This document shows positions 928-30,843 of a DNA stretch of 64,000 nt, in pieces. The first letter of the stretch is position 1, and every line of letters begins with the position of its first letter. The notes under the pieces were generated by a model that worked only from the letters and a program-made list of their open reading frames with translations, did not search any database and had not been told where the DNA came from. The stretch lies in the NCBI RefSeq assembly GCF_000787575.1, contig NW_012236515.1, positions 4,621-68,620 on the forward strand, in the 5' to 3' direction. The DNA is from Acytostelium subglobosum LB1 (lineage: Eukaryota > Evosea > Eumycetozoa > Acytosteliales > Acytosteliaceae). The position numbers were made by a program, and so were the translations under genes.

Positions 928-1205
928 ATAAAAGATAGATATTAGTCCTTGGCATGACGGTAAACTGCAGCACTTACTTTGAAAGTCAAGCTTCCCTGAC
1001 CCGAACTAGACCTCAAGTTGGAGTCCAAATTCGAAAGTGCGAAATCACAAGACAACACCAACTATCACTCCCCACAAAAATGCCCTAGGGTCGAAGTGAA
1101 AACATATCGAAAATGCAAATGCAATAAATCGAGAAGCCAGGAGTGTATATGCTCCTGTGTGAAATATAAAAAAAAAAAAAAAAAAAAAATAAAAGATAGA
1201 TATTA
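928..1205 (+). mobile_element. SINE-like retroposon with poly(A) tail and target-site duplication
   Basis: A unique segment of about 223 bp (945-1167) is followed by an unbroken A-run of 22 (1168-1189). The whole is flanked by a direct repeat of 16-17 bp (ATAAAAGATAGATATTA at 928-944 and again at 1189-1205). This is the hallmark of LINE-machinery retroposition. The head of the insert has a tRNA-like pol III A-box candidate (TGGCATGACGG, 950-960) in a D-arm-like context (GCA...TGC) and, about 45 bp further on, a weak B-box-like GACCCGAACTAG (998-1009). No protein-coding capacity is seen. A perfect duplication and an intact A-tail suggest a recent insertion. It could instead be a one-off retrocopy of a cellular RNA; copy number decides, and that cannot be seen here. 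Confidence 0.68.
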
Positions 1206-4546: not shown

Positions 4547-7500
4547 TTAATGTTTGACAGCAGGCAATATGTTTCTTAAGTACGCTGCATTCAGTCCTGG
4601 TGTTGGTCTCGTCTTGACCTGGACAATCTCATTGTCAGACCATATGCACACCCTACCATCGATATCACCAGAGTAGATCTTTTGTTGGTCACTGCGTGTG
4701 TGAATGTATGTCAGCAGTCAGTAAGTGATTCTATTTCTATTTGTTTATGAATGACTTACTTTGTCAAAAAGAGAGCAGTGATTGCATTGGTATGAGCTGA
4801 TTGGTTGTAAAACGTCGATCGTAGTAGAAGTACATTCTTGAATGCCAGCGGTGACAATGGATCATTGTCAATGGAGGGAAGAAGTCTGCTCTCCAATCCC
4901 CACACCTTGATCTTTCCATCTCGGTGTCCAGTGAGTAGCACATTCTCGCCCAACCATTCGGGTCCCTTTGACCAGAGACATGATGTGATTTGGTCATAGA
5001 TTATCTGAGATGTCTTGTACGAGAGCACCAATTCTCCATTGACATTGTAGACATTGATGGTGGTACCTGAGCAGGTGACAATATCACCAGTGGTGTCGTG
5101 TACGCCAATGCACGAGATTGGACTATCGTGGCCAGTGAGTGTCCTAGAGTATCGCAGTCTATTGAGATCCCAAATGATACAGGTTTGGTCCTCTGATCCA
5201 CTGACGATTAGAGAGAATGGTCTCGATGCTGCCAGTGCAGTGATAGCGCCTGTGTGTCCAACCAGTCGTTTGCTCAGCGAGTATCGCTTCAAGTTGTATA
5301 CACACACCAAGCCATCGACACCTCCACTGACGGCAATGTATCCATCATCGGTTGCGGTCAGACAAGTGAGTGGACCATCGTGGTGATCCTCGAGCGCCTT
5401 TGTCTTATCTCCAGTGTTGTAACGAATACTACCGTCGGGTAGTCCCCAAGTGATGTATCTTGTAAAGGTTGGGGCGAGCTGGTGTCTAAAGAAGCCAGTG
5501 CAGGAGGCACGCTCGTTCACCAAGCGGATTTGTCCTACAGGCTCACCAATGTCCTTGATGAAATTACCAACAAGTGACTTGGCGTAGAATGGGAATGAAC
5601 TGAGCACAGGATTTCGTCTTGGATGTGGTTTGTCAAACAGCTGCTTGGGGGTCTGACCAAAGTTGTTGATCTGTGCAATGGTGGCTGCCTTCTCGATAGG
5701 ATCGGTGATGGCATCAATGTTGACGGCGCCTTCGTATGTAAGGTAGTAGTACACGTTGAGGGAGTCTTCTGCAGGCTTGCCTTGCTGTTTGTAGCCAAAG
5801 ATCAAGTCTATCCATTCGTGTAGATGCTCAGACACATAGTCTGACTCGAGTGCCTTTCGATGCAACTTGATAAACTCTTGCACCGATCCTTTTGCCCACG
5901 GGGGCATGACCACATCGTTGATGATCTCGCCACCTTGCTTTGTGCCAAAGTTGAATTTGTTTGAGTTCTGAAGGAACTCGGGCAGGTAGTAGAACTCTGG
6001 GATAAGCTCCATGATTGAGCCAGTGGAGCCACACGAAGAAGAGGTCCATGCCTCGGAGATTGAACTGAACAGACGGTCGGCCTGGTCCCAACGGCCGCTC
6101 TGCAGTTTGAGAAAGTGTTGTGTGAACGGTTCCAAACGGATGAGGTAGTACAAGACGATGGCTGCCGAGGAGTAGTGAGTGCCATAGTGGAACTTGGGCA
6201 CGTTGTGGCCGTGCTCATTGGGTTCTTGGTCGTCCCAGTTCTCGAAACGCTCGCGGAACTTCTCGGCACGCGTTTCGTTTAGTGCGCCCATTGGCTTGGA
6301 GAGGTCACGATATACCTTTGGGTCGTCCAAGTCGAGATAATCACTCTCATAGTCGCGCAACACCCAAGGGAACACAGGGTACTGGGTCAAGTCATTGTAG
6401 CTGCGACCAGCTAGTGTGTTCAAATGCATGAGATACTGGAAGTTGGAGATTTGGCCCTGTTGCCACTTCATGGTCAGAGGTGATTTCCTCCACATCGATG
6501 TCAGACGTTCACGCATGCCAAGATTCTCTCGAGAATCATCGTCAATGGTCTGAGAGCCACTGATGCCGCTGACGTCACCAATTGTGTTGTTCGATACGTT
6601 TGTGATGATTTTGTAGTGCACATCATCACGAGTCAACTCGTCCTTGAGAACAAAGAGAGTGTTTCTGCCATCGGTTGAGAACAGCTCCATTGCCACAGGA
6701 CGCAAGAGGTATCGACGCTTGAGCACCTCTCTGACCTCTTCGTAACCCCACTTGATGCTGTTGTGGGAGATTATCTTCTTGGGTGGTAGTACGGCGCCTT
6801 CGACCAACCAGTCCATGTTGATCTTTTCCTCAACTTCTGTGACCTCACCAGTCTGCTCGTCCTTGGTGTAGCCATCAAAGATGTACATGTTGGCGGGACA
6901 AAAGAGGAGTATGCCCTCGATCTTATCCATACCATCCACACTGCCACAATTGTACATGACTGACAGTAGCTTGGGATTGCGACGAAGCTCGTCTCTGAGG
7001 AAGTTCTGGTCGTAGGGATCGAGTTGTCTAGTGTAAGCAAGGTTCTCTTCCTCTGTGTTTGTGGTCATTGAGTTCTCCTCATCAAGTGCTCCAAGTGACT
7101 CGTCAACCTCGTTGTTGATACTCGTCAATGCAGGTGTGGTTGATGTTGGAGTGTCGTTGTTGTTGTTGTTGTTATTGGTGTCTGTGTCGGTAGTATTTGT
7201 GACATCACTACGCTCAGTCGTCTCTGAAAGGTTGAAGAGCTTGGATTCGTACTCGGATTGCTCCTCTGACTCCAAATCAGAGCTGGTTGATGATGGTGGA
7301 GGAGGTATCTCCTCTTCAGATGTACCAAGTGGTGTATCTGGCGGAGTGATATCCACTGAAGAGCTTAGAGGGGAGGATGGCTCTGATGTCTTGGAGGACG
7401 ATGAAACCCCACTTGAAGACAACATGCTGTTGTTGACTGAACTACTTCGTTTGGCTTTGACCGTGACCTGTTGTTGTTGTTGTTGTTGCTGTTGCTTCTG

Positions 7501-10500
7501 TTGATGGGAGGACTGAGAACTACCCTCACCACCACCACCACCTGGAACAGAGTTGGGAAGTACAGAACCATCAGGGGCAGTGAACTTCCAGTATGCTGGC
7601 TCCAACAGGTCGGCATCAGGTGTACCGGCAATGTCCATGAAGGCCTTGCTGTCCTCACTGCATGGAAGAGGCAGGAGACTGTTGTTGCTCTCATCGAATG
7701 TTGGTGGCACGAATGGGTAGTTCTTGTAAAAGTCATAGTTCTTCTCGGTCTTCTTGCGCATACGATATGGACCCTCTGTGGAGTCCAGTTTGAACTTATC
7801 GAGTGGTGACGGGTCATTCGGTCCCCACACAGCGCGCTCTCGTGTCACCTGGTCCTTAATCGACTCGAACTGTTTGGTGTTGAACTTTAGCTTGTCCTTC
7901 TCTGATTGATTGATCTTCTTGCGTCTCTCGACCTCTGACGAGACAAAGTACTCAATCTTCTTGGTGATGTGTTCCTTCTTCTCGGCCTCATTCGCTGCGA
8001 TCTTGCGTTGATTCTTCTCGTGACCCAACATTCTCTCCTTACGCAAATATCTGATGCTGTAGAGGTAGTCAGACTCGCCCTTCTTCTCGGCACTGAGTGA
8101 ATTGAGGTGAGCCTTCTTGCCATTGTCCTCAAACACCAAGTTGACAGACACGATGTTGTCCTGTATGTACTTGTTGAACTCCTTGACACCCTTGCTGGCC
8201 AGGAGGTCAAAGCCAGGTCGAAGGTCTATCACCTCGCCTCGTTGTGTGCGCAATGAAAGAGTCCATGAGAGAGTCTCGGCGAATGGTGAACGCAACTGCA
8301 CCAACAGCTTCCAGAGTTTGATGGCGCCATCCACAATGATCTGAGGCGCCTCTGTTGTCAACTTGAATAGTGGGTAACAGAGTGATGCGATAAAGTCCGA
8401 ATCGTTGTTGTTGTCACTAAAGACAATGCGTTGATGATTCAAGATGTGATTGATCGTGAAGATAATGTCTGCCTCTTGCTCCTCCGTCATCATATCAGAG
8501 CCAAGGTTGTTGCTATTGCTGTTGATCATGTGCAGAGTGATACGATTCAAACTACGATAGATAGGCTGTACATTCTTGAGCGAGGGGCGGTCGGCCTCAA
8601 GCTTCTCCAGTAGCTTGACCAGGAAGAGAAGCACACGACGTGTGATACCCTTGAACATGTCGAGATGTGCGCGATCCACCAACATGGAACAGAACTTGAC
8701 GAGGTTGGAACCAACACCACGCTCACTCTCAAAGAACTCTGACTTGGTGATGTTGTTCTCTATTGTGTAGAGTATGTCAAAGAGAATCCTTGTGTGATAG
8801 ACGAGGTGGTCGTCGTCGCTGCTCTTGATTGGCGTAGAGTCCAGGACAGTCTCAGTGATGGCTATTGCTTTGTTTGACTTGCGCAGTGCTGACAATACGA
8901 TCTGACACAAGAACTTCATGATCAGGTCTGCAACTCGGTCCTTCTTCTTGTTGTCCAATTGTGTTACTGGCAGTAGAGTCAAACGGCCCCCAGGGTAGAG
9001 TATGGAGACCAGGTACTCGATCATGGATTCGTTGAAGAATTCCTGCTGGAAGCTACCATTCTCGTGGAAGAGATACATAAAGTAGGTGAGTATGGTGTGC
9101 TGCAAATTGGCTGCCACCTCGGGTGTGGCTGAAGGCATGAGTGGCTGCACAACACCAATGTCGACCACTTGTGAAGATGCCAACGACGCCGCAGAGATGG
9201 GGACGACACTGTGGGTGGGCACCGCACTGGTGCTGAAGGATGTGCTTCGTCGCCTCTTGGTGGACCAAGAAGGTTGCTGACCATCAGTCTCCTCGAGAGC
9301 ACCTGCAAGATCTAGTGTTATCTCTTCAAACTTGTTGAGGAAGTTTCCAACACGCGCCAGCATACTAGACGCTCCGCTTGACGGTGGTGCTGATGTGTTA
9401 TTGGCACCTGCAGTGGAGGTGGTTGAGCTGTTGATTGTCTGCGAGAATGAAAGAGGTGAAGCAGACATGGAAGATGATGATGGCGTGGTGGATACAGGAG
9501 AAGGGATCTGGTAGCGGGCAGAAAGGTCGTCGATTGTGAGCTCACTTTGGTCTCCAGAGTGATACTGTTGTGGTCTATCATGTATGTACTGGTAGTTGTC
9601 TTCGTAGGAGCGTTTGACCAATGATAGTATTAACTGTGCGGCTTCAATGCAGTAGAGCTTCTGTTCACTGGCTCTAAAGATGTTGAGCAACTCGTGGAAC
9701 TCAAGGTTGGACAAAGGTTGCTCAGTGGTCGATGTTCCTGCTGTCTGTTGTGTTGTTTGACCCTCGATCAAAACGCTTGGTTTGCTTCCCAACAGAAGAT
9801 GCAACAGAGAGAGATACACCTCTTGATAGCCGTTCATACCCGATAGAATGTCCTCGAGCAGCTTAAAGCCATTCTTCTTGATGAACGATTGGCAATACTC
9901 GTGCTTGAGGAGGAAGAACGCAACTGAAACCTTGAGAGCCAGTGACACTGAGAGGGGCGGCAACTTCTCACTGATGAAGAAGAAGCTCCAAAAAGAGGAC
10001 ACCCGACGAAAGATCACACTGGTGTCTTTGGATGTGGTGACTACCTGAAGGAACATCTGGAATACGCGGTTGACCGTCTGATTCACTCTAACATCGAGCG
10101 CAGCTCTCTTGCTAGAGTATCTGCGTGAACGTCTGGTCTGGTTGGCGTGGAGACCATATATGAGATAGGCAGAGAGCAGTCTGATGTCATCCACCATCAA
10201 CTTCTCGTTGAACATGTTGTAGAGAACTGTGATGACGCTCTGCACAATGTCCTCTGATACACTGTCGTCTTGGAGTATGTCAAACAGTTGTTGGATGATG
10301 AAAATCTTTCGCAACTGTTCGGCGTTGAAGCTGTGCTGATGATTGTCCACTACCAAGTCGTTGAAACCCTGCAAGATGTATCGCTGATACTCTATCTGAG
10401 TGTTCTTCCACACGGAATGGTCGAGCAGGATATACTTGCAAGCATTCCAATTGGCCACTGTACCCTCGAGTCGATTGGTGACACTGGTTGCCCCATTGAT

Positions 10501-29937: not shown

Positions 29938-30011
29938 GTCAGGATGGTGTAGTCGGTTATCACATGACCTTCACACGGTTAGGGTCACGGGTTCGATTCC
30001 CGTTCTTGATA
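29938..30011 (+). tRNA. tRNA-Val (anticodon CAC)
   Basis: It folds as a complete cloverleaf. Acceptor GTCAGGA pairs with TCTTGAT (two wobble pairs) and the discriminator is A at 30011. The D arm is GTGTAGTCGGTTATCAC. The anticodon stem TGACC/GGTTA encloses the loop TTCACAC, so the anticodon is CAC (reads GUG, Val). The variable loop is GGGTC, and the T arm is ACGGG-TTCGATT-CCCGT, which contains the B box. There is no intron. Overall it resembles other eukaryotic tRNA-Val (GTGTAGT-GGTTATCAC D-arm). A T5 run at 30015-30019 is a pol III terminator just after the gene. Confidence 0.96.
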
Positions 30012-30014
30012 CAC

Positions 30015-30019
30015 TTTTT
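30015..30019 (+). terminator. Pol III terminator of tRNA-Val
   Basis: Five consecutive T residues begin four bases after the discriminator base of the tRNA. Confidence 0.8.
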
Positions 30020-30843
30020 GGCAGCACAAACAAGAAATTATACAAAATTCTGCGATCCCCTATCCTACCAACTAACTCCCTCAGTGTCTTCCACGGCCTC
30101 AAGCTCCCAGACATCTTCAAGGTCATCAGCACCCTGAGAGGACCATCCTCACGTAACGCCCTCTTCAGGTTCTTCTCCCATACCCTCCCAATCAACCATA
30201 TGAGAGCAGACGCTGACTGTACCCTCTGTGGCAACTCCTGCACAGACCAACCCTACAATCACTTCTTCTTTGACTGCAGCAAAGTGGCAACCCAAGAAGC
30301 CATGCGCCCAGCCTTAGACTTGGTGAAGCAAAGCTCTGGTATCAATGTCAGAGAATGGAACATTAAAGCACTGGACATCTCCACGAAGTCTCGTCGCCCC
30401 AACCTTCCATTCATCCACCTCATGGCAATCATCGTCAACTACCTCTGGCACTACATCGCCAACCACCTCTTTGGCAACAAGGAAGCCCTGTTGGCCAAGC
30501 TCAGCTTGGTGTGCATCACATCCTTCAAGTCCCTCCTCCGCCAGGAGTGGCGCTCCCTCATGTCCACGCTCACGAGTCACATCCTGGCCGGACGACCAGT
30601 CAACATCAAGAATGAGATGGCCAAGTTCACTACGACATCCGTCTTCCGCCTCTGCCGCCAACTATCAACAAATACTTGGTGGCCGAATTCAGAGGCCTAC
30701 AGTAGAAAAGAAAAGAAAGAAAAAAATCAAGAAAATTCAAAATCGACTAACTTATATATATTATCCCGCTTCTTCAATGACGCCAATTTATTTGCAATAA
30801 TAATAAACTTCCACTCTAGTCAAAAAAAAAATAAAAAAAAAAA
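30020..30843 (+). mobile_element. 5'-truncated non-LTR retrotransposon (TRE-like LINE), directly downstream of tRNA-Val
   Basis: An open frame runs from the tRNA end to about 30830. It encodes the C-terminal tail of a LINE ORF2: the zinc-binding-in-RT (zf-RVT) region NALFRFFSHTLPINHM...CTLCGN...YNHFFFDCSKV, with the C-x2-C...H-x4-C pattern, followed by a tryptophan- and basic-rich tail. No endonuclease or reverse transcriptase domain remains, so it is heavily 5'-truncated. The 3' end is A-rich (purine tract 30702-30740, A-runs at 30822-30842), fitting a poly(A) tail. Same orientation and immediate downstream position match the TRE3 class of Dictyostelium tRNA-targeted elements; that family name is inference. 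Base composition is clearly richer in G+C than the flanks. No target-site duplication was found by eye. Confidence 0.85.

Follow-up and report, generated by a model that had tools for sequence, protein, structure and literature searches.

A young SINE of Acytostelium subglobosum with a 3' tail in common with rare LINEs of the same genome

The element in the window

The window, the whole stretch of DNA that was analysed, covers 64,000 nucleotides of the Acytostelium subglobosum LB1 assembly (C39:4621-68620). Near its start lies a SINE that ends in a run of A and is flanked by a target-site duplication (TSD); a LINE tail lies much further downstream. The features are as follows:

928..944, + strand: left TSD copy, 17 bp, an exact repeat of 1189-1205
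945..1167, + strand: SINE body, 223 bp, same sequence in the copies on contigs C52 and C21
950..960, + strand: weak A-box-like motif TGGCATGACGG (matrices from 9 tRNAs of this genome)
1015..1026, + strand: weak B-box-like motif AAGTTGGAGTCC (same matrices)
1122..1167, + strand: 3' tail region common to two LINE families, LINE-A and LINE-B, about 40 nt from CAATAAA (pattern matches and pairwise alignments)
1136..1160, + strand: predicted RNA hairpin, core CAGGAGT-GTATAT-GCTCCTG (fold z -3.99)
1168..1189, + strand: poly(A) tail, 22 A
1189..1205, + strand: right TSD copy, with its first A doubling as the final A of the tail
30020..30843, + strand: tail of a 5'-truncated, L1-like LINE (LINE-C), with a different 3' end; not supported as the partner of the SINE

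The TSD of this copy, at 928-944 and 1189-1205, is ATAAAAGATAGATATTA (17 nt). A preliminary description had given a 22-A tail, a body of about 223 bp and a TSD of 16-17 bp; these values hold as 22 A, 223 bp and 17 bp, and the range for the TSD arose because one A is common to the end of the tail and the right TSD copy. The SINE is short (223 bp) and has no reverse transcriptase (RT) of its own: the longest frame over it has 87 codons, begins with TTG and runs through the A-tail into the flank. TTTT is absent from the body, and the fold of the whole element is ordinary (z -0.97; 32 of 200 shuffles are equally stable).

The arrangement itself can be searched for, as a run of at least 12 A followed by a 14-nt repeat of sequence 60-600 bp upstream. 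The scan finds one place in the window, which is this element, and none on the other strand or in 200 order-1 Markov windows; the Markov control is a mild one, with 0.005 such A-runs per simulated window versus 1 in the real window. Two further copies with different TSDs, and their empty sites, are stronger evidence than the scan and independent of it.

A putative gene on the minus strand at 2-877, close to the SINE, encodes an AT-hook-like motif, KRGRP. Its ATG is about 110 bp from the SINE, which lies upstream of it in the opposite orientation; an effect on the promoter of this gene is conceivable. Elsewhere in the window, one protein has PDB matches to RCC1-repeat proteins.

Copies, target duplications and empty sites

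The organism's own assembly (30.7 Mb in 56 contigs) was searched for further copies. The SINE sequence is found at four or more places, the count being a lower bound, like all such counts here, since very common words are skipped by the search: the window, C52:2027, C21 (minus strand) and C25, the last a fragment of 57 bp. The three full bodies are identical (223/223 bp). Their TSDs measure 17, 14 and 14 bp in the window, C52 and C21, respectively, and all differ in sequence; the A-runs have 22, 9 and 8 A in the same order, and the C21 copy carries one additional T at its 5' junction.

Empty sites cover two of the three full copies. The C52 copy adjoins the end of the transposase frame of a mariner-like element (a sister copy has Pfam DDE_3 and HTH_Tnp_Tc3_2 matches), and three paralogous mariner copies (L052, overlapping L004; L039; L045) are unbroken at this point and have the TSD sequence only once. 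The C21 copy lies inside what appears by eye to be an LTR-retrotransposon pol gene; the sole other match to its flanks at E <=0.001, in C43, is again unbroken with a single TSD. The C25 fragment adjoins a mariner copy at TA, and the SINE is not resumed on the far side of the mariner, so this place is rearranged. Beside the fragment is a frame (L004:1-1230) that resembles, by eye, the D5-like helicase/primase of viruses and large DNA transposons.

Identical copies with their own TSDs and A-tails, together with the empty sites, thus identify a young, dispersed, recently active LINE-type retroposon and no one-off retrocopy. This bears out the preliminary description, which had called the insertion a SINE-like retroposon with intact poly(A) and TSD. 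The genome search with 945-1167 that it proposed returns three full copies, each with its own duplication and A-tail, rather than the lone hit to a known RNA locus that it named as the contrary case.

Head and 3' end of the SINE

The A-box-like and weak B-box-like motifs reported earlier near the head are present, and both are weak. TGGCATGACGG and AAGTTGGAGTCC form the best A/B pair, which is matched by 21 of 2000 shuffles when the A box is confined to the head (a limit chosen only after the first A/B result) and by 175 of 1000 shuffles when its position is free. The weak boxes at the expected position are suggestive, and a Pol III head is possible on this basis. The further proposal that the head is tRNA-derived did not fare as well. 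The sole tRNA that ARAGORN reports in the window is a tRNA-Val at 29938-30012, outside the element. A covariance model was built from 9 of the 11 tRNAs found in this genome. Run unfiltered on 900-1250, it reaches no more than 0.2 bits, with the tail hairpin as its best match, as against 63.9 for the real tRNA-Val; a run over the entire window gives 26 matches, all of them outside 928-1205. Rfam with E up to 10 gives six matches, all far under the gathering scores and none credible; at gathering scores there are no matches in L004, L050 or L053. A tRNA-derived head is therefore not supported by any of the three tests, though the position-limited A/B pair is suggestive. Elsewhere in the assembly, the head matches only the four SINE places already known (E up to 10).

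The 3' end can be traced further. The preliminary description had recommended comparing it with LINE 3' ends, and the comparison gives a match: the last ~40 nt of the SINE (from CAATAAA through CAGGAGT-GTATAT-GCTCCTG) correspond to the 3' ends of LINE-A and LINE-B directly before their A-tails. The 14-mer GAGTGTATATGCTC from this tail has seven exact places in the assembly, namely three SINE, three LINE-A (C10, C42 and C52, all identical 3' ends of this one LINE family) and one LINE-B (C13); at each of the four LINE places, 10-14 A follow within ~20 nt downstream. Allowing one mismatch adds six places, versus three for the reversed control. Relaxing the pattern while requiring AATAAA 6-30 nt upstream returns the same seven and one unrelated place in C44, with none for the reversed control. 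When the tails are aligned from CAATAAA on, none of 2000 letter shuffles scores as well in any of the three pairs, and SINE and LINE-B have 23 identical nt. The evidence for a tail sequence common to the SINE and LINE-A/B is strong.

The structure of this tail is a different matter. In the SINE, the predicted hairpin is more stable than all 200 shuffles; the same core folds in the LINE-A and LINE-B tails, but at chance level (17 and 19 of 200 shuffles as stable). The covariation alignment has five rows from only three independent families. Of the helix pairs in it, four are invariant, a fifth alternates between G-C and A-U, and three outer ones are broken in some rows. A single pair is altered on both sides, for a score reached by 49 of 500 shuffles (non-significant), and a helix slid by +2 outscores the predicted one (0.188 vs 0.150). 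With folds at chance in the LINEs and covariation non-significant, a common structure is plausible and not proven by covariation.

The LINEs with this tail are incomplete. LINE-A has three copies with different 5' cut points, and by eye no target duplications are seen at the truncated 5' boundaries of the C52 and C42 copies; LINE-B has one copy, internally deleted. The assembly has 18 RVT_1 matches, all of them away from the LINE-A and LINE-B tails. In LINE-B, the start of an RT is implied by 28-38% matches ahead of other RT frames, after which the sequence jumps to the tail; there is also a weak match to Exo_endo_phos (APE-type endonuclease; E 3e-4, below the Pfam cut-off). LINE-A encodes a stretch that matches another family, LINE-D, downstream of the LINE-D RT, and the LINE-D copy in C54 is the closest RT-bearing frame to LINE-A (about 45%). 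No tail is seen in 900 nt at the LINE-D 3' end. Against PDB sequences, LINE-D is about equally close to R2Bm (2e-14) and human L1 ORF2p (1.2e-12), and LINE-A/B are without a complete RT. An intact LINE with the SINE-type tail was not found in the readable assembly; thus, the machinery that made the SINE copies is not visible intact there, and it may lie in unreadable stretches or have been lost.

The LINE tail in the window had earlier been put forward as the partner. It belongs to LINE-C, which is clearly L1-like by its matches to PDB sequences (human ORF2p 5.9e-50 vs 9.5e-22 for the best R2). LINE-C ends in AATAAACTTCCACTCTAGTC, then A; a search of the assembly with its 20-nt 3' end returns 30 places, 27 of them exact, and none for the control. 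The SINE has no match to 30020-30843 (word size 7, E up to 1), and the two 3' ends are alike in poly(A) only. We therefore reject this tail as the partner; it is LINE-A/B that match instead.

Several observations concern the places at which these elements lie. LINE-C fragments are found directly or closely behind same-strand tRNA genes (window 29938-30843, L041:4359-4467 and L049:5155-5541), a placement that recalls the tRNA-targeting dictyostelid LINEs of the TRE3 type described in passages of PMC5911963. Six of the eight SINE, LINE-A and LINE-B places are within 5.6 kb of a contig end (C39:5565, C52:2027 and its neighbour C52:3297, C42:1566, C10:27560 and C13:80000), which may reflect an assembly broken at repeats or clustering at chromosome ends. 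Tandem repeats of 11 bp with similar units (e.g. GCCAGTGAATA) occur near the LINE-B and LINE-A tails, possibly as a satellite marked by these tails or hosting them. C54 has a frame resembling, on visual inspection, an oxidosqualene/cycloartenol cyclase, with a truncated LINE-D copy just after it. The coordinates are:

L045:7191-7905 (C13): 11-bp tandem repeats, 65 units
L051:2004-2682 (C42): 11-bp tandem repeats, 62 units
L050:4039-4070 (C52): 11-bp tandem repeats, 3 units
L042:3840-5420 and 5799-7799 (C54): cyclase-like frame and truncated LINE-D copy

Mode of movement and known SINE/LINE pairs

Taken with the LINE-type 3' end, the TSDs, A-tails and empty sites point to insertion by a LINE enzyme through target-primed reverse transcription, which the cited parts of PMC3747384 and PMC5135761 give as the accepted mechanism for SINE/LINE pairs. 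From the tail we infer which LINE served the SINE: it is probably a non-autonomous element copied by a protein of the LINE-A/B lineage through the 3' end of hairpin and poly(A) that they have in common. The SINE RNA, possibly made by Pol III, would end in the hairpin and poly(A), as in the rare LINE-A/LINE-B lineage. A LINE-A/B-type protein would recognise this end, with the hairpin as the putative signal, nick a new target and reverse-transcribe the SINE RNA there, and the insertion would leave an A-tail and a target duplication of 14-17 bp. Several results count against this explanation: no intact LINE with the tail was found, the LINE-A and LINE-B tails fold at chance level, the covariation is non-significant, and there are only three full SINE copies.

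The same tail could also have been inherited. RIME/SIDER-type elements are deletion derivatives of LINEs, and the SINE could have arisen similarly by internal deletion from a LINE of the LINE-A/B type, its head being the LINE 5' UTR and its tail the LINE 3' end; it would then be no SINE with a foreign head. A LINE-like tail joined to a head with no tRNA or Rfam match is what such an origin would produce, and among the LINE-A/B copies found, none has a recognisably complete 5' end with which to compare the head GTCCTTGGCATGACGG. We consider it unlikely: a search with the head (E up to 10) returns the four known places alone, the available LINE-B 5' stretch gives no match to the head, and the A/B-box-like motifs are placed as in a Pol III head. 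Nor does the tail have to be in use: the abundant LINE-C might move the SINE by poly(A) alone (the relaxed type), leaving the hairpin tail as a relic. LINE-C is L1-like and its 3' end far outnumbers the four LINE-A/B tails, and the identical SINE copies imply that some machinery worked recently. What makes this reading distinctly improbable is that the tail has been retained beside poly(A) in the SINE and in LINE-A/B. Location is a small pointer in the same direction, since LINE-C fragments lie behind same-strand tRNAs and the SINE loci (L001-L003, L050 and L053) are free of tRNAs by ARAGORN, in a small sample without a background rate. Poly(A) and TSDs by themselves, and a head of unrecognised origin, would also be compatible with processed copies of a single cellular RNA that lack any tail specific to an element; with a 3' end common to four LINE tails and no source locus without a TSD found, the chance of this is very slight.

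Copying by a LINE-A/B-type protein, our preferred reading, has parallels. In the cited parts of PMC3747384, stem-loop ('stringent type') pairs include eel SINE/UnaL2, ZmSINE2/3 with LINE1-1_ZM, and SINEX-3_CR/L1-1_CR of Chlamydomonas. As in these pairs, the 3' end of the SINE is common to a LINE of the same genome and a hairpin is predicted in the tail of the SINE; as in SINEX-3_CR/L1-1_CR (PMC3747384), poly(A) stands behind the tail. Unlike them, it has its own sequence and host, only three full copies, a head not recognisably tRNA and a hairpin whose use is putative. One might go further and place the proposed hairpin-based recognition in an L1-clade LINE lineage of this social amoeba. We regard this as doubtful; it depends on the clade of the partner, and LINE-D is no closer to human L1 ORF2p than to R2Bm. 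If true, it would extend stringent recognition within the L1 clade beyond green plants and favour the view, given in the same parts of PMC3747384, that the relaxed recognition by poly(A) alone seen in mammalian L1 is a derived state.

Among amoebozoans, the table of SINE/LINE pairs in PMC3747384, as far as it is available, lists Entamoeba only. The Entamoeba SINE-like elements and EhLINEs are similar to the present case in being amoebozoan, with a non-autonomous member whose head is of unrecognised origin and which pairs with the LINE by its 3' end; their LINEs are of the R4 type (PMC3747384), whereas LINE-B has the weak APE-type match. In Dictyostelium, TRE5-A.2 is described in the cited part of PMC5633606 as a TRE5-A variant that lacks ORF2 and is mobilised in trans. 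It too is a non-autonomous element of a social amoeba served by a LINE protein, as we propose here. The difference is that TRE5-A.2 derives by deletion from a known LINE whose group targets tRNA genes (PMC5633606), whereas the 223-bp body of the present SINE contains no LINE coding region and its loci have no tRNA gene by ARAGORN.

In the portions of the dictyostelid retrotransposon literature consulted, there is no named dictyostelid SINE family: the term 'SINE' is absent from those of PMC5006619 and PMC5633606, and PMC5911963 uses it four times, with a general mention in the passage at hand. RepeatMasker SINE counts of 88 in D. discoideum and 57 in D. purpureum are given in PMC4683709, with no family named in the part cited, so a flat claim that no dictyostelid SINEs are on record would fail. 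As far as these sources go, the principle of sharing a stem-loop tail is known, and this SINE family is apparently new. Being young, with empty sites and a tail matched to a LINE, it offers a compact natural test of which features at a template's 3' end are read by a LINE RT: within a single genome, the common LINE-C has only poly(A) in common with the SINE and the rare LINE-A/B has the tail.
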